A DNA stretch of 48,791 nucleotides from contig JAITMJ010000108.1 of NCBI GenBank assembly GCA_031277475.1, positions 1-48,791 of the forward strand, read 5' to 3'. Source of the stretch: Flavobacteriaceae bacterium. GTDB lineage: Bacteria > Bacteroidota > Bacteroidia > Flavobacteriales > Weeksellaceae. Positions 8,061 to 47,749 of this stretch are shown one piece after another. The notes beneath the pieces are model-generated. The model saw nothing but the letters and a program-made list of their open reading frames with translations. It did not search any database and had not been told where the DNA came from. Position 1 is the first letter of the stretch. Every line of letters begins with the position of its first letter. The position numbers and the translations under genes are program-made.

Positions 8061-9251
8061 ATGAAAACAGTCAATAATTTTAATTTTAAAGACAAAAAAG
8101 TGTTGGTGCGCGTGGATTTCAATGTTCCGCAGAACGATGAATTGAAAGTTACCGACAATACACGAATTTCAGCCGCAAAACCTACGATTGATAAAATTCT
8201 GAAAGACGGCGGTTCCGTGATTTTAATGACGCATCTCGGGCGACCGAAAGGAAAATCTTCAGACGAATTTTCCCTGAAACACATCCTTCCCGAAATTGAA
8301 AATGTATTGGGAAAATCGGTGAAATTTGCCGAAGATTGCATCGGCGAAAATACCACGAAAATGGCTTCGGAACTGCAATCCGGTGAAATTCTTTTGCTCG
8401 AAAATTTAAGATTTCACAATGAAGAAGAAAACGGCGACAAAGATTTTGCGGAAAAACTTTCCAAATTGGGCGATGCTTATGTGAACGATGCTTTTGGAAC
8501 GGCTCACCGGAAACACGCATCCACAGCCGTGATTGCCAAATTTTTTCCTTTAACCAAATTTTTCGGATTGCTGATGGCGAAAGAATTGGAAGCCATTGAC
8601 AAAGTTTTGAAAACCGGCGAAAGACCGATAACCGCTATTCTCGGAGGTTCAAAAATTTCATCAAAAATTACGATTATCGAAAATATATTGCCTGCGGTTG
8701 ACAATTTGATTATCGGCGGCGGAATGGCTTTTACGTTCATCAAAGCGTTGGGCGGACACATCGGAAATTCCATTGTGGAAGAAGATAAAATGCCGCTGGC
8801 GTTGGAAATTTTAGAAAAAGCGAAACAAAAAAATGTGAAAATTTATTTGCCCGCAGACGTGATTATTGCCGATAGTTTTAGCAACGATGCGGAAAAAAAG
8901 GAAGCCGATGTTTACCACATTCCCGAAAATTGGCAAGGATTGGATGTCGGCACGAGAACGAGAGATATTTTTCACGATGTGATTTTGGATTCTAAAACCA
9001 TTTTGTGGAACGGACCCGTAGGTGTTTTTGAGATGCCTAATTTTTCTGCCGGAACCGAAAGTTTGGGAGAAAGTATTGCGGAATCCACGAAATTGGGAGC
9101 GTTTTCTTTAGTTGGCGGCGGCGACAGCGTTGCTTTTGTGAAACAATTCGGATATGCCGACAAAGTTTCCTACGTTTCCACCGGTGGCGGCGCAATGCTG
9201 GAAAGTTTGGAAGGCTTGGAACTTCCGGGAGTTGCGGCGGTGAATGTGTAG
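8061..9251 (+). CDS. pgk: Phosphoglycerate kinase
   Basis: This glycolytic enzyme transfers phosphate between 1,3-bisphosphoglycerate and ADP. Its 396 aa are full length. The N-terminal signature [10 protein letters not shown] is at ~12-21, substrate-binding HLGRPKG at ~60-66 and [10 protein letters not shown] at ~145-154. The nucleotide-domain motifs [17 protein letters not shown] and GGGDSVAF are all present and in order. The ATG start matches the family N-terminus. The gene is monocistronic, and an inverted-repeat element lies in its leader. A dispersed repeat and hairpin (9268-9336) follow the stop codon. Confidence 0.98.
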
Positions 9252-26243: not shown

Positions 26244-27161
26244 TCAATTTCTGTGAATTTTATTTTTCCTCAACAAAAATTTCGCGATATATTTCAGGTA
26301 TTCTGTTTTCAAAATGGCGGACAAAGATTTAAAATTTTCCTGTTCACCGGCGATGCGCTGAAGATTAAAAGAAATTTCATCATCCTTAAGACCGGCGGTT
26401 CCAAAACTTAAATGAATATGTGGTTTTATGGCTTCAAAAAACGTCTTGGATACTTCAAAATCGGTAAACGGAAAAGCGAACATTTTTAATTTTTGATGTA
26501 CGACAGATGTCACAAAATCCAGACTTTCAAGGGTTTGTCGCAGTTGCTCGTCCGGCGAAATTTCAAAAAAATACGGATGGTCAATGCTGTGCGCACCGAT
26601 GCTAAACCCCTTTTCGTGCAAAGATTTTATCTGTTCGGAAGTCATAAACGGTTTTTCCCAATTTAAAAAATCGTCCACTTGAGATTGCGAAAAATATTGA
26701 AACAATTTGTCTTTTTCGGCGTATTTGCACGAAAGAATTTCCGTTTTCAGCAGATGGGTCAATTTTCCTTGTTGCAAAAGATTTTCTATGGACAAACTCG
26801 CGTGGTTGCGATAAAACAAGGCTTTGTTGTCCGCAAATTCGGAATTGATAAAAAATGTGGCGGGAATTCCTTTTTCCAATAAAATGGGCGCGATGATTTC
26901 ATAGGCTTCTTTCAATCCGTCATCAAAAGTCAAATGAAAAACCGGTTTTTTCGGCGAGGTTTTTTCGGATTGAAACCGGTGCAAAGTTTCTGCGTCTATC
27001 GGTTCAAAATGTTTCAGCAAAAAATCCAAATCTTTCCCAAATTCTTTCACGGTTTTCATTCGGTAAAGATGCTTGATGTGCGGCAAAGGCTGTTCGGCTA
27101 CCGCGTGATAAAACGGGAGTATAATGTTTTTTTTTGTGATGGAAGCAAGGAAACTCGTCAT
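26244..27161 (-). CDS. Polysaccharide deacetylase (NodB) family protein
   Basis: In this 305-aa protein the NodB catalytic motifs are LTFDDG (TFDDG at 78-82, catalytic base Asp and metal Asp) and GAHSIDHPYF (HSIDH at 191-195, metal histidines). There is no signal peptide or membrane helix, so it is probably cytoplasmic or membrane-associated and acts on a carrier-linked sugar or small saccharide (inference). A basic tail (LLRKNKIHRN) ends the protein. It may share function with the envelope operon at 28.9-33.5 kb, but the ATPase gene and MITE lie between. Confidence 0.9.
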   Translation of the reverse strand: MTSFLASITKKNIILPFYHAVAEQPLPHIKHLYRMKTVKEFGKDLDFLLKHFEPIDAETLHRFQSEKTSPKKPVFHLTFDDGLKEAYEIIAPILLEKGIPATFFINSEFADNKALFYRNHASLSIENLLQQGKLTHLLKTEILSCKYAEKDKLFQYFSQSQVDDFLNWEKPFMTSEQIKSLHEKGFSIGAHSIDHPYFFEISPDEQLRQTLESLDFVTSVVHQKLKMFAFPFTDFEVSKTFFEAIKPHIHLSFGTAGLKDDEISFNLQRIAGEQENFKSLSAILKTEYLKYIAKFLLRKNKIHRN

Positions 27162-27343: not shown

Positions 27344-28486
27344 ATGGATACACCAATCATTCGTTATCAAGAAGAAGCGATTAAGAAAAAACTATTGCCG
27401 AACAAAGTGGTTGTACTCATCGGCGCAAGAAGAATTGGGAAAACGGAATTGATAAAAAAGATTGTCTCCGAAACCGAAGAAAAAACAATGTTTTTAACGG
27501 GGGACGATTTATCAACACACCAAATTCTGAAAAACAGAACTTTGGAAAATTATAATCGTCTCTTGGGCGACTGCCGTTTTTTGGTCATTGACGAAGCTCA
27601 AGAAATTCCGGACATTGGAATGAAACTAAAATTGATGATAGATCATATTTCGGGATTGAAAATTTTAATTTCCGGTTCTTCCGCTTTTGAATTGCACAAT
27701 CAAACCGGCGAACCATTGGTCGGCAGACAATATGTTTTCCAAATGTATCCGCTTTCTCAATTGGAATTTTCGGCAAGGGAAAACTATATCGAAACTAAAA
27801 ATAAATTAGAGGAACGCTTGATTTACGGCGGCTATCCCGAACTCACGAAAATCCCGAATCTGAAAGACAAAGCGGATTATTTAAAAGATATCGTCAGTTC
27901 GTATTTGTTGAAAGATATTCTGTCTTTTGAAGGCATCAAAAAACGGGATGTGATTATTTCATTGCTTCAAAAAATTGCGTTCAGAAGCGGATATGAAATC
28001 TCTGTACAATCTTTGGGAAATGAATTGCAAATCAGCAAAAATACGGTGGATAAATATTTGGATTTGTTTAAAAAAGTGTTCATCATATACGATGTCAGCG
28101 GGTTTAACAAAAATAAAGACAATGAAATTACCAAAATGAAAAAATGGTTTTTTACGGACACCGGAATTCGCAATGCGATGATTAACAATTTCAGCCCGCT
28201 GAATATGCGCACGGATGTCGGTCAGTTGTGGGAAAATTATTTAAATTCCGAGAGAAATAAAGTGGTTCATTATAAAAATTTGCAAGTAGATTCTTATTTT
28301 TGGCGCACACATTCTCAGCAAGAAATTGACAGAATTGAAACGATAAACAACGATATTTCCGCTTTTGAATACAAATGGGATTCTTCTAAAAAAGAAAAAA
28401 TTCCGCCGCAATTCGCAAAAACTTATCCGAATGCTCAATTCACAACCATTAATCAGGAAAATTATTTGGATTTTATTGTTTTTTAA
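27344..28486 (+). CDS. AAA_14/DUF4143 family ATPase
   Basis: This 380-aa protein has Walker A GARRIGKT (27-34), Walker B FLVIDEAQ (79-86) and ILISGSSAFEL as the sensor region. A winged-helix-like segment lies near 217-240 (LGNELQISKNTVDKYLDLF). The DUF4143-type C-terminal fold has LWENYLNSERNK, QEIDRIE and FEYKW, which form a plausible PD-(D/E)xK core. It is only a distant paralog of the protein at 494-1696. It is a lone gene with its own phased operators. A MITE-like element inserted immediately at its stop codon and supplies a possible terminator (28560-28603). Confidence 0.9.
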   Translation: MDTPIIRYQEEAIKKKLLPNKVVVLIGARRIGKTELIKKIVSETEEKTMFLTGDDLSTHQILKNRTLENYNRLLGDCRFLVIDEAQEIPDIGMKLKLMIDHISGLKILISGSSAFELHNQTGEPLVGRQYVFQMYPLSQLEFSARENYIETKNKLEERLIYGGYPELTKIPNLKDKADYLKDIVSSYLLKDILSFEGIKKRDVIISLLQKIAFRSGYEISVQSLGNELQISKNTVDKYLDLFKKVFIIYDVSGFNKNKDNEITKMKKWFFTDTGIRNAMINNFSPLNMRTDVGQLWENYLNSERNKVVHYKNLQVDSYFWRTHSQQEIDRIETINNDISAFEYKWDSSKKEKIPPQFAKTYPNAQFTTINQENYLDFIVF

Positions 28487-28809
28487 TTGTCAGACAGACC
28501 AAACGCATTAAAATTTTAGTTTCAAATTTCTATTTTTCGGGCGTGTCCCTCGCCAACGCATTGCAACCGCTCGGGTCGGGCTGTCCGTTGCAATCTTTTT
28601 TTTCCGCCTCCGCCAAAAAACCGACCGCAAAAAAAGGATTTCCACTTCCATCCCTCACGCAAAAAGCATATCAAGAGAACACAAACCTTTGCTAAATGAA
28701 ATGCCTTTGCGCTCCGAAAAAATATGAATAAAAAATCCTTGCGTTCCCCTTTGCGTGAAAAAAAAGACGGTGGATTAATATTTTTAATGCGCTTGTCCTG
28801 ATTGTCAGA
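28486..28809. mobile_element. MITE-like element A with 9-bp target duplication
   Basis: The target duplication ATTGTCAGA occurs at 28486-28494 and 28801-28809. The element between (28495-28800, 306 bp) has imperfect terminal inverted repeats, CAGACCAAACGCATTAAAA against the complement of the right end CAGGACAAGCGCATTAAAA (16 of 19). It shares internal sequence (AAGAGAACACAA-CCTTTG..., then ATGCCTTTGCG) and ends with element B at 47453-47740. There is no transposase; the reading frames inside look spurious. The rest of the gap to 28888 shows nothing further. Confidence 0.75.
28560..28603 (+). terminator. Possible terminator inside MITE A
   Basis: Inverted arms ATTGCAAC/GTTGCAAT enclose a GC-rich 19-nt loop, followed by C and then T8. 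It is ~75 bp past the ATPase stop codon. The long loop makes it uncertain. Confidence 0.45.
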
Positions 28810-28888
28810 TGGAACACCTTGTACAATCATTGCCTCCGTCATTTTTATTTTTTTAATGGTGTCGGCGAATCTTCGATTTCGCTTGTGT

Positions 28889-30571
28889 TCATGGGTGTTT
28901 CATTTTTAATATTTTCAATTCGGGATTCAATACCCAAAGAACGGAATCCGGAACGAATGTTTTTGCGGAAACGTCTTTTTCTTTCTGATGCAAATGGTAT
29001 TGAATTCCTGCGATATTTGCAAAAGTGGGAAAAACATTAGTCGTATTTATTCTTTTGTTCAGATGGTTTTCCAAATTTTCGACAAGCGATTGATTTTCCT
29101 GCAAATAGCGGTCTGAAAACCAGATAAACATCGGAATATGAAGTTCGTATTTCGTGGGATTTAGAGTTCCGTGTCCTATGCTGACATCGGGAGCATCAAA
29201 AATATTTTCGCCGTGGTCCGAAATATAAAACAGCACCGTTTTGCAATTTTTATTCTCAATTTTTTTGATGATTTCGTGAATAAAATAATCGGTGTACAGG
29301 ACGGAATTGTCGTAGGCATTTATAAACAATTCTTTATTTTTTTCGACAACTTCGTGGGTAAAATATGATTTTGGGATTGTGGGTTTAAATTTTTCAAAAC
29401 CGGAAGGATAGCGAAAATTATATTTATAATGACTTCCCAAAGTGAATAAAAACAGGGATTTCTTTTTTTCTTTTGCGTTTAAAATGGAATCAATGCGGGG
29501 CAGCAAAAGACCGTCGTATTTTTCGTCGAACTCAAAATCGTTGTTATTGATATAGTGATAATCGGCTTCAGTTGCCAATTGCCTCAAAAATATTTCATTT
29601 TCGCCTTGATTGGAAAGCATATAGGTTTTAAAACGGGCTTCTCTGAAAAGACTGACCAACGATTTTTCCCGATTTGCCATATTTTTTTCCGGAACGGTAG
29701 CCCGTGTCATCAAAATGGGAAATACGTTTTCCGTAAGGTTTCCGGAGGAAAATACATTTGAAAAAGTCAATAATTTTTTTGCTTTTTTCAGGCTGTCCAA
29801 AAAAGGTGTTGTGTTTCGCCGGTATCCGTTGATTCCAAAATGATCATAACGCGCAGATTCTCCTACGATGAAAATGTAGGTTTCGCACTCGTCATCTGTT
29901 TTTGCAGTCGGATTAAACTTGAAATTTCTGATTTTTTCCATCCGGCTTTCCAATGTTTTTTTTTCGGATATGGCGTAGTAAGTTTTGATTCCGATGCTGT
30001 ACGGATAGGTTCTAAACAATTTTATTTTAAAACTGTACCAAATCATTTCTTTTGCGCTGACTTCTTTCGACGGATGCACTGCCAAAACGGATATTCCGCA
30101 CAATAAAACCACATAAAACCAAATACCGATTTTTCTGCTTTTTGAGACAAGCAAACTGCGGTTGGGAATTTTAATCCATAAATAAATATAAGAAAACCAA
30201 TAAATTACAACCAAAACCGCCATAATTTTGAAACCGGACAAATAGTTGAGAATCTCATTGGCATTGGTATTGAAAATCGTTAATATAAATCCTGAAGTCA
30301 GAGGCGTTTGGTTCACGATGATGTGTCCGATTTCGAGCGGAGCCAACAAAACAAACGGAAAATAGATTCCAAAATATATTTTTGATTTTAAAAATATTGC
30401 CGGAAACAAGCAGAAAAACGCGCCCAACAACGTATATAAAATACTTTTTAAAGAGATTGCATCGTGAAAAAATAAATACAAATTCGGTGTGAACGCCAAT
30501 AAAAACAGGAAAATCCACATTCTGTAAAATGAATTTTTTGGGGAGAACATTGATGAAAAAAAAACGTTCAT
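28889..30571 (-). CDS. EptA-like membrane transferase (alkaline phosphatase superfamily)
   Basis: This 560-aa protein has about five N-terminal membrane helices (~18-165), then a periplasmic sulfatase-fold domain. Key motifs are VGESARYDHFGINGY (236-250), LTENVFP (~279-285), GSHY (~379-382), SDHGEN (451-456) and IGHGT (465-469). These match phosphoethanolamine transferases that modify lipid A or glycans. The catalytic position that is Thr in EptA is Ser239 here. It is the last gene of a four-gene operon and overlaps the ACP gene by 4 bp (ATGA). The true donor may differ from phosphatidylethanolamine given the FkbH/ACP partners (inference). Confidence 0.88.
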   Translation of the reverse strand: MNVFFSSMFSPKNSFYRMWIFLFLLAFTPNLYLFFHDAISLKSILYTLLGAFFCLFPAIFLKSKIYFGIYFPFVLLAPLEIGHIIVNQTPLTSGFILTIFNTNANEILNYLSGFKIMAVLVVIYWFSYIYLWIKIPNRSLLVSKSRKIGIWFYVVLLCGISVLAVHPSKEVSAKEMIWYSFKIKLFRTYPYSIGIKTYYAISEKKTLESRMEKIRNFKFNPTAKTDDECETYIFIVGESARYDHFGINGYRRNTTPFLDSLKKAKKLLTFSNVFSSGNLTENVFPILMTRATVPEKNMANREKSLVSLFREARFKTYMLSNQGENEIFLRQLATEADYHYINNNDFEFDEKYDGLLLPRIDSILNAKEKKKSLFLFTLGSHYKYNFRYPSGFEKFKPTIPKSYFTHEVVEKNKELFINAYDNSVLYTDYFIHEIIKKIENKNCKTVLFYISDHGENIFDAPDVSIGHGTLNPTKYELHIPMFIWFSDRYLQENQSLVENLENHLNKRINTTNVFPTFANIAGIQYHLHQKEKDVSAKTFVPDSVLWVLNPELKILKMKHP

Positions 30572-30813
30572 ATTTTGTCCGGAGATTTTTTTTCTATTAT
30601 ACTTTTCAAAAGCGTTTCAAAAGAGGTCAATTCCTGTATTTCTTCAATATGAAATGAGATTTGAAATTCAGCTTCTACGTTCATAATCAATCGAAGCTGT
30701 CCCAAACTGTCCCATTCGTGAAGATTTTCCACACGCGTTTCCGGCGAGATTTCCTGTTCCGAAACGTTAAATGTTTTCGCAAATACGTCTTTCAACCGAT
30801 TTTCTATTTCCAT
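30568..30813 (-). CDS. Acyl carrier protein (dedicated, non-housekeeping)
   Basis: In this 81-aa acidic helical protein the phosphopantetheine attachment site is Ser36 in EWDSLGQLRLI, a W-D-S-L form found in carrier proteins of specialised pathways rather than the fatty-acid DSLD form. It lies 3 bp after the FkbH gene and overlaps the transferase gene by 4 bp, so all are translationally coupled. It probably carries the acyl or glyceryl unit made by FkbH. Confidence 0.92.
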   Translation of the reverse strand: MEIENRLKDVFAKTFNVSEQEISPETRVENLHEWDSLGQLRLIMNVEAEFQISFHIEEIQELTSFETLLKSIIEKKSPDKI

Positions 30814-30816
30814 AAC

Positions 30817-32373
30817 TTAAAAATTTTCTAAAAAATAGTGTTTTTCATCATCGGAAATGAATCCGTTTTTGATGTAAAAATCTTTTGCCACAATATTTTT
30901 ATCGGTTTTATTGTAAATTCCTTCCACTTTTTTTATTCCTTTATCCTTGATTTTCATAATAATATGTTTCATAAAATCATTTTCCACATTTCTGCCCAGC
31001 ACTCGGCAACTTAACAAAAATGTATCAACGGTTGCTTTTTCATTTTCGGTTTTTATAATGGCACAGCCGATAATTCCCTCTTTCCCGAATTTATCTTCAT
31101 ATTCGCAAATATATATACTAAATCTGCTATCCGAGTTCATTGTGGAAATATCGGTTTCGGAATATCTTTTTCCGGTCAAATTAAACTGATTGGTTTTTTG
31201 GGTTAATTGTGCCACGCGAAAAAATTGACTGTCATTCGGTTCGGAGATGGTTAAACGAATTTGCAACGAGGCGATAAATTCTTCATAACTCAATGTTTTT
31301 TGGATTTCGTTTCGGCTGATATTTCTTTGATATTGCACGGTTTTTTCTTTATCTTCATCCGTCAATTGTTTTTTCGGGAAAAACGGATATACCACATTCA
31401 TCACAAACCACGGATTGAGCACGGAAATATCTTCGGGAAAATCCGGCGTTTCAATTTGGGGAAATGTTTGCTTGACCAATTCCCGCTCTCGGCGATTATC
31501 ATCAATGAAAACCATAGAATCCAAGCCTAATTGCAGGGATTCTGCTATTTCGGCGATGTTGTCCGTTTTTTGTCGCCAATTGATTTTATGCAAAATAAAA
31601 TCGTCCCATTTCAGGTGCATATTCGGATTTTTTTCAAACATTTCTTTGGCATCCGCTTCGTTGTTTTTGGAACAGGAAACCAGCAAAATGCCCATTTCTT
31701 TCAGTTGTTTTATCTTTTTTTGAAAATCCACGAAAATCAATCCGATTCCTTCCTGCGAAAGTTGTATGTTTTGTTCGTCGGTTTCTCCCAAAATGCCGCC
31801 CCATAAAGTGTTGTCCAAATCCAAAATCAGAACTTTTTTTGTTTTTCCGAGCAAACAAGTCAAAACATTTTTCACTTCGTCCGCCAAAACACGAAATCCC
31901 AAATTTGAAAACTTTATTCTTCCCAGATACCAATATTTGTCATCAAACAAATTTTTATAGCCGTTCCACAGAATTAATCGGTTAAAATCAAGGACAAACA
32001 CATTTTTGTTCCGTTGAGAAAACTCGTCTAATGCGGCGTTCAGCGAATTTATTTCGGTGTTTTTTTCCGAATAGGTAGCCACGGAATATGGCGGAAAATT
32101 AAAATTTGAAATTATAAATCGGGTTTGCGGCACACGCCGGAAATACGTTTCTACGCTTGCCAAAAACGCTTCCGGATTTTCTTTGTATTCGCCGGCATCC
32201 AAATGGATGAAAACATACTGCGGCGAAAATGCGTATAAATCGGAAGAAACATCCAATAAATCGGATTGCCAGCGATTGAAACCACTGAAATAAAGTTCCA
32301 AAAAATCGTTTTTTTGCAATTCGTTTTTTAATGGATCAATGTTTATGTTGCTGAGTATGGCTAATTTTATCAT
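30817..32373 (-). CDS. FkbH-like HAD-IIIC protein
   Basis: In this 518-aa protein residues 1-~175 form an SGNH-like N-terminal domain. The HAD core follows, with the nucleophile motif ILDLDNTLWGG (183-193, D185/D187), VSCSKN (~231) and FIDDNRRE (~290), all diagnostic of the FkbH/HAD-IIIC family. The C-terminal ~170 residues are a GNAT-like domain (FRVAQLTQKTNQFNLT, GCAIIK, YNKTDKNIVAKDFYIKNGF). Characterised FkbH enzymes move a C3 unit from 1,3-bisphosphoglycerate onto a carrier protein. An ACP gene directly follows, so that chemistry is plausible here. No polyketide or peptide synthetase is nearby. Confidence 0.92.
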   Translation of the reverse strand: MIKLAILSNINIDPLKNELQKNDFLELYFSGFNRWQSDLLDVSSDLYAFSPQYVFIHLDAGEYKENPEAFLASVETYFRRVPQTRFIISNFNFPPYSVATYSEKNTEINSLNAALDEFSQRNKNVFVLDFNRLILWNGYKNLFDDKYWYLGRIKFSNLGFRVLADEVKNVLTCLLGKTKKVLILDLDNTLWGGILGETDEQNIQLSQEGIGLIFVDFQKKIKQLKEMGILLVSCSKNNEADAKEMFEKNPNMHLKWDDFILHKINWRQKTDNIAEIAESLQLGLDSMVFIDDNRRERELVKQTFPQIETPDFPEDISVLNPWFVMNVVYPFFPKKQLTDEDKEKTVQYQRNISRNEIQKTLSYEEFIASLQIRLTISEPNDSQFFRVAQLTQKTNQFNLTGKRYSETDISTMNSDSRFSIYICEYEDKFGKEGIIGCAIIKTENEKATVDTFLLSCRVLGRNVENDFMKHIIMKIKDKGIKKVEGIYNKTDKNIVAKDFYIKNGFISDDEKHYFLENF

Positions 32374-32381
32374 CGTTTATT

Positions 32382-33467
32382 CTAAGTGAAAACATAATCT
32401 CCGTCGCCTTCCTGAAAAATATCGGGCGCAATATTTTGAGTTTTGGGTAAAATATATGCACGTTTGCAACGGCGTTCGAAAATATACCGCATTCCGGATT
32501 TTCGGATTTTATTTACAATTCTCTCGTCAAAAATAGTCAATAGAATTAAATTTTCATCGGAAATTTTCTTTAAAATATACGCCGAAACATCGTCCATCAT
32601 ATCATCATCGGCAAAAACATAACTCACGGTGAGGTTTCTGTTTTTTGTTTTCAGCAGCAAAAAAGCGTTCAATTTTCCGCTTCTGAAAAATGCTGTGGAA
32701 TCGTATTCAAATTGTTCGCTTTTTGAGGAAAAATAATACCGTTTGCTTTCCGAATCCTGTTTCCCCTGCAATATCCAAGGATATTTCAATATCCATTCAA
32801 AATGTTCCGAAAACCGCTCGGCAAAATTGTTTTTTTTGTAAAAAGCATTAATAAAATCTTGAAAATCTTCATCAAAATTGATATCGGAAGCGATTTCGGA
32901 ATGAAATTTTATAGGTTTGTAAAATATTTTTTTAATGCTTAACAATGAATTTATCACAAAATCCGATGCTCTAAAAAGCGGTTTCAGAAATCGAATCTTG
33001 GGAAAACGAGTCGGCAAAATATCGCCAAAACAACTTCTGAGATAGAATCGGCTGCCGAATTTGTAAAGCGTAGGTCTAAAAACGCCCAAACTTTGATACA
33101 TTTTTTCCAAACTCGGAAGGAAGTTGGAAATGAGAAGTTTGTCGCCGCACTGTTTTATCAGCGGAAAAAAAAGCATCGAGGCTAAATTGCCGTTTCTTAA
33201 ATTTTCGTTTACCCAAAAAGTGCTTACCCAAAATATTTTTTCCCGCACTTGATTGGTATTGATGTAGCCCGGCAAAACGCCAACATAACCCAATAATTGT
33301 TCATTTTCATAAGCCGCCCAAAGCAATATGTCGTTTTCATCGGCGTCGGGATTTTGAATATGCGCTATCGCCCGATGACGGCTTATCGGGATTTGATTCA
33401 AATTTTTGTAAAAATCAGAATTGATGAATTTTTGTAATTCAGCACGATTGTAGGATTTTATCTGCAT
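32382..33467 (-). CDS. GNAT-like N-acyltransferase, first gene of FkbH operon
   Basis: In this 361-aa protein the N-terminal half has a GNAT-type pattern (LLGYVGVLPGYINTN, VSTFWVNENLRNGNLASMLF, ISNFLPSLEKMYQSLGVF). The second half (~215-350) looks like a second acetyltransferase-type lobe (SKRYYFSSKSEQFEYDSTAF, IYFERR-like ends). I recognise the fold class but not a specific family. It is cytoplasmic. The stop is 8 bp before the FkbH start. It may transfer the acyl unit from the carrier protein to an amino sugar (inference). Confidence 0.7.
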   Translation of the reverse strand: MQIKSYNRAELQKFINSDFYKNLNQIPISRHRAIAHIQNPDADENDILLWAAYENEQLLGYVGVLPGYINTNQVREKIFWVSTFWVNENLRNGNLASMLFFPLIKQCGDKLLISNFLPSLEKMYQSLGVFRPTLYKFGSRFYLRSCFGDILPTRFPKIRFLKPLFRASDFVINSLLSIKKIFYKPIKFHSEIASDINFDEDFQDFINAFYKKNNFAERFSEHFEWILKYPWILQGKQDSESKRYYFSSKSEQFEYDSTAFFRSGKLNAFLLLKTKNRNLTVSYVFADDDMMDDVSAYILKKISDENLILLTIFDERIVNKIRKSGMRYIFERRCKRAYILPKTQNIAPDIFQEGDGDYVFT

Positions 33468-33501: not shown

Positions 33502-33509
33502 CAAAGTTA
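33502..33509 (-). promoter_or_regulatory. -7 promoter box TAACTTTG for the FkbH/ACP operon
   Basis: Perfect TAnnTTTG on the minus strand, ~31-nt leader to the ATG at 33467. It appears to be the only promoter for the four genes. Confidence 0.65.
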
Positions 33510-47443: not shown

Positions 47444-47749
47444 ATGTTTAACCGGGTCAAACGCATTAAAATTTTAAATGTTTATAACTAAATAAATTAA
47501 ATACGCCTAATAGTTATTAAATATTTAAGTATAATTTTAACACAAGGAATTTTTGAAAAGGTTTGAAAATATTTTAAACGCAAAGTCGTTTCACTCTGCA
47601 ACCGGAAAAACGCATTAAGAGAACACAAGCCTTTGCTAAATAAAATGCCTTTGCGTTTTCGAAAAATTTGGATAAAAATATGGCGAACTTTGCGTTAAAA
47701 AAAAGACGGCGGATTAACATTTTTTAATGCGTTTAGCCTGATGTTCAAC
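47444..47749. mobile_element. MITE-like element B with 9-bp target duplication
   Basis: The target-duplication candidates are ATGTTTAAC (47444-47452) and ATGTTCAAC (47741-47749), one mismatch. The element (47453-47740, 288 bp) has ends CGGGTCAAACGCATTAAAA and, complemented, CAGGCTAAACGCATTAAAA. It shares interior sequence with element A (AAGAGAACACAAGCCTTTGC, then ATGCCTTTGCG). There is no transposase frame. It lies between tsf and the secreted-protein gene. Confidence 0.7.

Follow-up and report, generated by a model that had tools for sequence, protein, structure and literature searches.

What do four tightly packed genes, for a two-domain GNAT N-acyltransferase, an FkbH-type enzyme, an acyl carrier protein (ACP) and an EptA/EptC-like membrane protein, make together, and do they serve one pathway at all? 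They lie in a 48,791-nucleotide contig of a Flavobacteriaceae bacterium of the Weeksellaceae (hereafter the window, meaning the whole stretch that was analysed), and an earlier note had taken them for a candidate pathway of carrier-tethered envelope decoration.

Layout of the operon and its counterpart in another order

The genes lie on the minus strand with the spacings first described, and run from GNAT (32382-33467, 361 aa) through FkbH, a HAD-IIIC glyceryl transferase/phosphatase by family (30817-32373, 518 aa), and the ACP (30568-30813, 81 aa, with its phosphopantetheine Ser in a DSL motif at residues 35-37) to EptL, a putative membrane phosphoethanolamine transferase of the EptA/EptC kind (28889-30571, 560 aa). 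GNAT and FkbH are 8 bp apart, FkbH and ACP 3 bp apart, and ACP and EptL overlap by 4 bp. The earlier note placed the end of the unit at 28889, but it extends further, since a gene encoding a CE4 polysaccharide deacetylase, PSdeac (26244-27161, minus strand, 305 aa), belongs to it as a fifth member. That note missed the deacetylase, which would generate the amine for GNAT to acylate and makes sense of the pathway. The window operon is not adjoined by any sugar-nucleotide or glycosyltransferase gene.

Public genomes were scanned with a PSdeac alignment, which yielded 80 loci; one of them (L077, in a Bacteroidales MAG) carries on one strand the order LpxD-LpxC-FemAB-like-GNAT-FkbH-ACP-EptL-PSdeac. 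The four-gene order that the earlier note had proposed to look for in other genomes is thus present there, with PSdeac as the fifth gene, and the proteins are 62 (GNAT), 64 (FkbH), 63 (ACP), 66 (EptL) and 59% (PSdeac) identical to those of the window; because the same order is kept at 59-66% protein identity, the gene order in the window is not a matter of chance. Apart from this match the operon is patchy in its occurrence. PSdeac begins 5 bp past EptL in L077, with no ATPase gene between the two, whereas 1.7 kb separates them in the window. That interval holds a plus-strand AAA_14/DUF4143 ATPase gene that lies outside the pathway (27344-28486; PF13635 and PF13173), flanked by interspersed repeat pieces (28487-28888), and the simplest reading is that the window operon was split by insertion of the opposite-strand gene and the repeats. 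The repeats in the operon gap comprise three distinct sub-repeats side by side; with 28487-28900 as the query there are 54 matches in the window's own genome, and pieces of this kind recur in the window at 47606-47742. A second AAA_14 ATPase gene of the same kind, with a weak DUF4143 match, lies at 494-1696.

In the genome of L077 (G609) a single lpxC was detected, and it stands in front of the operon with lpxD adjacent. This position ties the operon to envelope work there; the envelope product that the earlier note envisaged gains support from it.

The signals upstream of the window operon carry less weight. A candidate Bacteroidota -7 box, TAACTTTG, is indeed present on the minus strand (33502-33509), but the window contains 68 matches to this 8-mer pattern where shuffles lead one to expect 63.6. 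Such a count does not exceed chance, and the box taken by itself does not indicate a promoter; all that speaks for it is its position, 35 bp ahead of where GNAT starts. Similarly, the terminator that had been noted corresponds to a terminator-like 15-pair stem followed by CTTTTTG (33583-33549, minus strand), between the operon and the upstream OMP gene, downstream of which it sits, although sites of this class are not in excess in the window (9 against 7.8 expected). Elsewhere the window holds T9SS type A cargo genes (TIGR04183; 20704-22137, 34645-41382 and 41797-43869) and a phosphoglycerate kinase gene (8061-9251). The reaction of phosphoglycerate kinase involves 1,3-bisphosphoglycerate, the expected substrate of FkbH; that both genes share the window is probably coincidence.

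A deacetylase-acyltransferase pair and its loading module

PSdeac matches PF01522 (Polysacc_deac_1; E 1.2e-19), and the CE4 metal motifs Asp-Asp and His-x3-His are intact (D80, D81, H191 and H195) and invariant in 15 sequences, so that it is predicted to free a sugar amine. It keeps close company with GNAT. Homologues of GNAT occur in 16 of 294 other genomes of the class and all 16 have a full-length PSdeac homologue (E < 1e-28), which is found in 20 of the 294 overall (hypergeometric probability ~5e-23); the two genes share one cluster in 14 of the 16 genomes and are directly adjacent in 12 loci. Within the window's own family GNAT occurs in 129 of 295 other genomes, mostly at ~30-35% identity, and the pair was present at each of the six same-family loci inspected. 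PSdeac and the two-domain GNAT are a widespread gene pair of the Bacteroidia, for which we found no described role in the literature searched.

By sequence GNAT matches Pfam Acetyltransf_1 weakly (E 6e-4), and a sequence search of solved structures gave no relative. Its AlphaFold model is a confident tandem GNAT fold (pLDDT 93), the best structural match of which is an N-myristoyltransferase (NMT; Z 17.6, rmsd 3.9, 280 residues aligned, 10% identity); NMTs match over the full length and Foldseek agrees, but the modelled likeness is one of fold, and we claim no sequence kinship. The protein ends exactly one residue past a conserved F/M/Y in 67 of 67 homologues, with FT as the final residues in 54 of them, which is consistent with a functional C-terminus. 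NMTs acylate primary amines and usually employ the C-terminal carboxylate as the base, although truncated human NMT1 retains activity (PMC7048800). The shared fold and the constant C-terminus thus argue for an amine acceptor. The pyrophosphate loop is degenerate (RNGNLA), and the ACP as acyl donor is suggested by gene neighbourhood alone; GNAT is predicted to move an acyl group from the ACP to a sugar amine.

The nature of that acyl group is indicated by FkbH, which scores 288.7 bits against TIGR01686 (cut-off 146.65) and has intact HAD-IIIC motifs (DLDNT at 185, SCSKNN at 233 and IDDN at 290), which are kept in those relatives whose sequence spans these sites. The ACP matches PF00550 (PP-binding) at 28.5 bits. 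Formation of glyceryl-ACP from 1,3-bisphosphoglycerate by FkbH and an ACP has been described (PMC7489565), and the earlier proposal that the two form a glyceryl-ACP loading pair, with D-glyceryl derived from 1,3-bisphosphoglycerate, is supported as a prediction. FkbH is a single-copy gene in the window's genome. Scanning genome contigs with the FkbH protein alone gave no confirmed match, plasmids gave distant matches only, mostly from Sinorhizobium and Streptomyces, and the literature searched for FkbH together with LPS yielded no link. The FkbH copies of the same family (34-39% identity) were rejected as instances of the same operon, since they usually adjoin an ACP but none adjoins this GNAT.

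Variants of the locus and the place of EptL

Other PSdeac loci differ in what accompanies the pair. Two of them (L104 and L140) have PSdeac-GNAT-FkbH and an ACP without an adjoining EptL, and a third (L115) has PSdeac-GNAT-FkbH without an adjoining EptL but stops at a contig end. No close EptL was found elsewhere in these genomes, and the phosphoethanolamine (PEtN) step would therefore be optional or separate. In four loci (L046, L110, L121 and L124) a DltA-like amino-acid ligase, a second GNAT and an ACP replace FkbH-ACP, and in L082 the DltA-like ligase and second GNAT alone are present.

A tree built from 68 GNATs unites the five FkbH-linked proteins in one clade (100/100) and the four ligase-linked proteins in another (100/99), while six same-family GNATs from loci with the pair only fall outside both; L110 is a long branch. 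Because each loading module has its own GNAT clade, module and transferase appear to fit together, a split that is expected if GNAT must match its acyl-ACP. The window GNAT goes with FkbH-ACP by the same token, and its assignment in the earlier note as the transferase of this pathway is supported. Vertical inheritance of GNAT within the family is not favoured, as the six same-family proteins form a different clade, and acquisition of the window gene is more likely on the tree.

At the FkbH-type loci PSdeac does not fall into a single clade, so that there is no strict match between deacetylase and acyl group. The proteins of the window and L077 cluster with those of L076 and L080, two loci with FemAB-like genes as neighbours, and those of L104, L140 and L115 lie elsewhere. 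FemAB and PSdeac are adjacent in L076, and in L077 the set GNAT-FkbH-ACP-EptL stands between them, as if the four genes had moved into a FemAB-PSdeac pair. L076 also has a gene for an S46-type dipeptidyl peptidase (Pfam S46) adjoining PSdeac, and putative S46-type proteins of ~710 aa with similar N-termini adjoin PSdeac in L173, L175 and L177.

EptL itself matches PF00884 (Sulfatase/EptA-like) at 172 bits, and its closest solved chain is EptC (5zzu; E 1e-36). Residues E238, T280, H381, D452 and H453 align with catalytic or metal residues of EptA; EptA His465 aligns to S464, beside rather than on a His, with a GHG motif at 466-468. The nucleophile aligns as Thr280, and we reject the 'Ser-type' label given to EptL earlier. 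The protein has N-terminal membrane segments, and its catalytic domain is predicted to be periplasmic by family. It falls below all NCBIfam equivalog cut-offs (best PRK10649, CptA type, 242.8 against 404; CptA 198.1 against 900), its best matches being of the CptA/EptC and EptA types.

Such matches, like the lpxD and lpxC genes directly upstream in L077, would suit lipid A itself as the substrate, with PSdeac and GNAT altering a lipid A/core intermediate at an N-acyl or N-acetyl group and EptL acting as a classic PEtN transferase. The lpxC-fabZ genes of G000 are on another contig, however, and no other PSdeac-GNAT locus lies beside lpx genes among the annotated loci; we know of no glyceryl amide in lipid A, and regard this reading as improbable.

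The genes might also be neighbours without a common pathway, glyceryl-ACP serving another product and EptL being an independent stress or polymyxin-resistance gene that was carried along. The absence of EptL from L104 and L140 would fit this, as would the fact that EptA-like genes are common in the window's own family, mostly without this gene set. That a different bacterial order keeps the gene arrangement and its tight spacing at the identities given above speaks against it, as does a 37% identical EptL homologue that lies one (metallopeptidase-like) gene from PSdeac in L058, in a genome (G091) with no GNAT match, and we think it unlikely that the genes are unconnected. A further EptL homologue (40% identical; L012/L060, contig 98 of G017) has in-frame stops and is a decayed copy.

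A proposed route and its relation to known systems

The reading that we prefer, with a probability of about 0.6, is that the operon is an acyl-swap cassette whose substrate is a precursor in the cytoplasm, either a glycolipid or a nucleotide sugar, that probably leads to LPS or to a glycan linked to it. PSdeac would strip the N-acetyl group from an amino sugar; FkbH would take the glyceryl unit of 1,3-bisphosphoglycerate, remove the phosphate and charge the ACP; and the NMT-like GNAT would place the ACP-borne glyceryl group on the exposed amine, so that an N-glyceryl (glyceramide) sugar results. PSdeac, GNAT, FkbH and ACP all lack signal peptides and membrane segments, and these three steps are predicted to be cytoplasmic. 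After export EptL would attach PEtN, perhaps on the glyceryl hydroxyl or at another position of that glycolipid. The sequences themselves establish the parts and their order, the intact catalytic motifs, the conservation of the module and the link to lpxC and lpxD in one genome; we infer the four reactions, what they act on and where EptL adds its group.

The cassette might instead make the linking sugar of T9SS cargo, PSdeac being of the VimE type and the re-acylated amine serving as the handle for the sortase PorU. On the T9SS linking sugar of P. gingivalis and T. forsythia an N-acetyl group gives way to Ser or Gly through the Wbp/Vim pathway, in which the deacetylase VimE belongs to CE4 and the transferase VimA is FemAB/GNAT-like (PMC7468200). 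Of the 80 PSdeac loci, 35 have FemAB-like genes with weak TIGR03019 matches in the scanned flanks, and one such gene directly precedes PSdeac in L076, which holds GT2, GT4, FemAB-like and a closely related (65% identical) PSdeac in a vim-like order. Two T9SS type A cargo genes also lie close upstream of the window operon. PorU is present in 16 of 16 tested genomes, but also in 285 of 295 genomes of the class (270 above cut-off), so that its presence is uninformative; co-occurrence with PorU was dropped as a test of T9SS involvement for this near-universality. A glyceryl group moreover lacks an amine, whereas known linkers use that of the amino acid, and no VimA-type FemAB-like protein is encoded beside the deacetylase or elsewhere in the window, the genome having one, 24-29% identical, on contig C83. 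On balance a linking-sugar role seems rather doubtful. It is very unlikely that PEtN is placed on the glyceryl hydroxyl of the N-glyceryl sugar and that the ethanolamine amine is the T9SS sortase acceptor; this would be a T9SS counterpart of the rhombosortase anchor of V. cholerae, where a glycerophosphoethanolamine anchor accompanies rhombosortase (PMC6219818).

If the acyl-swap reading is right, a glycolytic intermediate would be routed into envelope glycans, the widespread PSdeac-GNAT pair of the Bacteroidota would gain a function, and the logic of deacetylation and re-acylation would reach donors that are carrier proteins, with FkbH or a DltA-like ligase as interchangeable loading modules. 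It would also show one way in which T9SS linking sugars could diversify, a matter left open by work on P. intermedia, where N-alanyl is used on a different sugar (PMC11969387).

The statement in the earlier note that no pathway with precisely this set of parts is described is literally true in the literature searched, but the logic is described, in VimE/VimA (PMC7468200) and in NodB/NodA, where deacetylation is followed by re-acylation from an ACP (PMC5380657). With Wbp/Vim the window shares a CE4 deacetylase that would free an amine, an acyltransferase that would add a small acyl group, and its setting in T9SS genomes of the Bacteroidota; VimA, in contrast, is FemAB-like and adds Ser or Gly, whereas the window has a two-domain GNAT with an ACP and FkbH for glyceryl, and EptL. 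Nod factor synthesis likewise passes an N-acyl group from an ACP to a sugar amine freed by a deacetylase, but NodA belongs to another family (there was no match to its Pfam family at E up to 1), the acyl group is fatty rather than C3, and the substrate is a chitooligosaccharide. The glyceryl-ACP (glycerate-utilisation) modules of polyketides also have FkbH beside a standalone ACP, with intact HAD-IIIC motifs (PMC7489565); the window operon lacks a polyketide synthase, FabH-like or dehydrogenase partner, and the predicted fate of the glyceryl group is a sugar amide. Neisseria GATDH carries a glyceramide made by PglB2 (PMC6959607), and there too a glyceryl amide replaces acetyl on an amino sugar, although PglB2 uses a distinct C-terminal domain, with no FkbH, ACP or deacetylase step described. 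EptL shares with EptA and EptC the sulfatase fold, Thr nucleophile, metal ligands and N-terminal membrane domain, and differs in its scores below equivalog level and in being encoded within an acyl-swap operon. The resemblance to DltA/DltC is confined to the four loci in which a DltA-like ligase and ACP replace FkbH-ACP, and is not seen in the window; no DltB-type O-acyltransferase was seen beside them, and GNAT would take its place.

By the tests made, the window set thus shares its logic with VimE/VimA, NodB/NodA and Neisseria GATDH and is a member of none. By analogy VimE/VimA and NodB/NodA come closest, and the cassette would vary a known deacetylate-and-reacylate logic in that its acyl donor is unusual and a phosphoethanolamine transferase goes with it.
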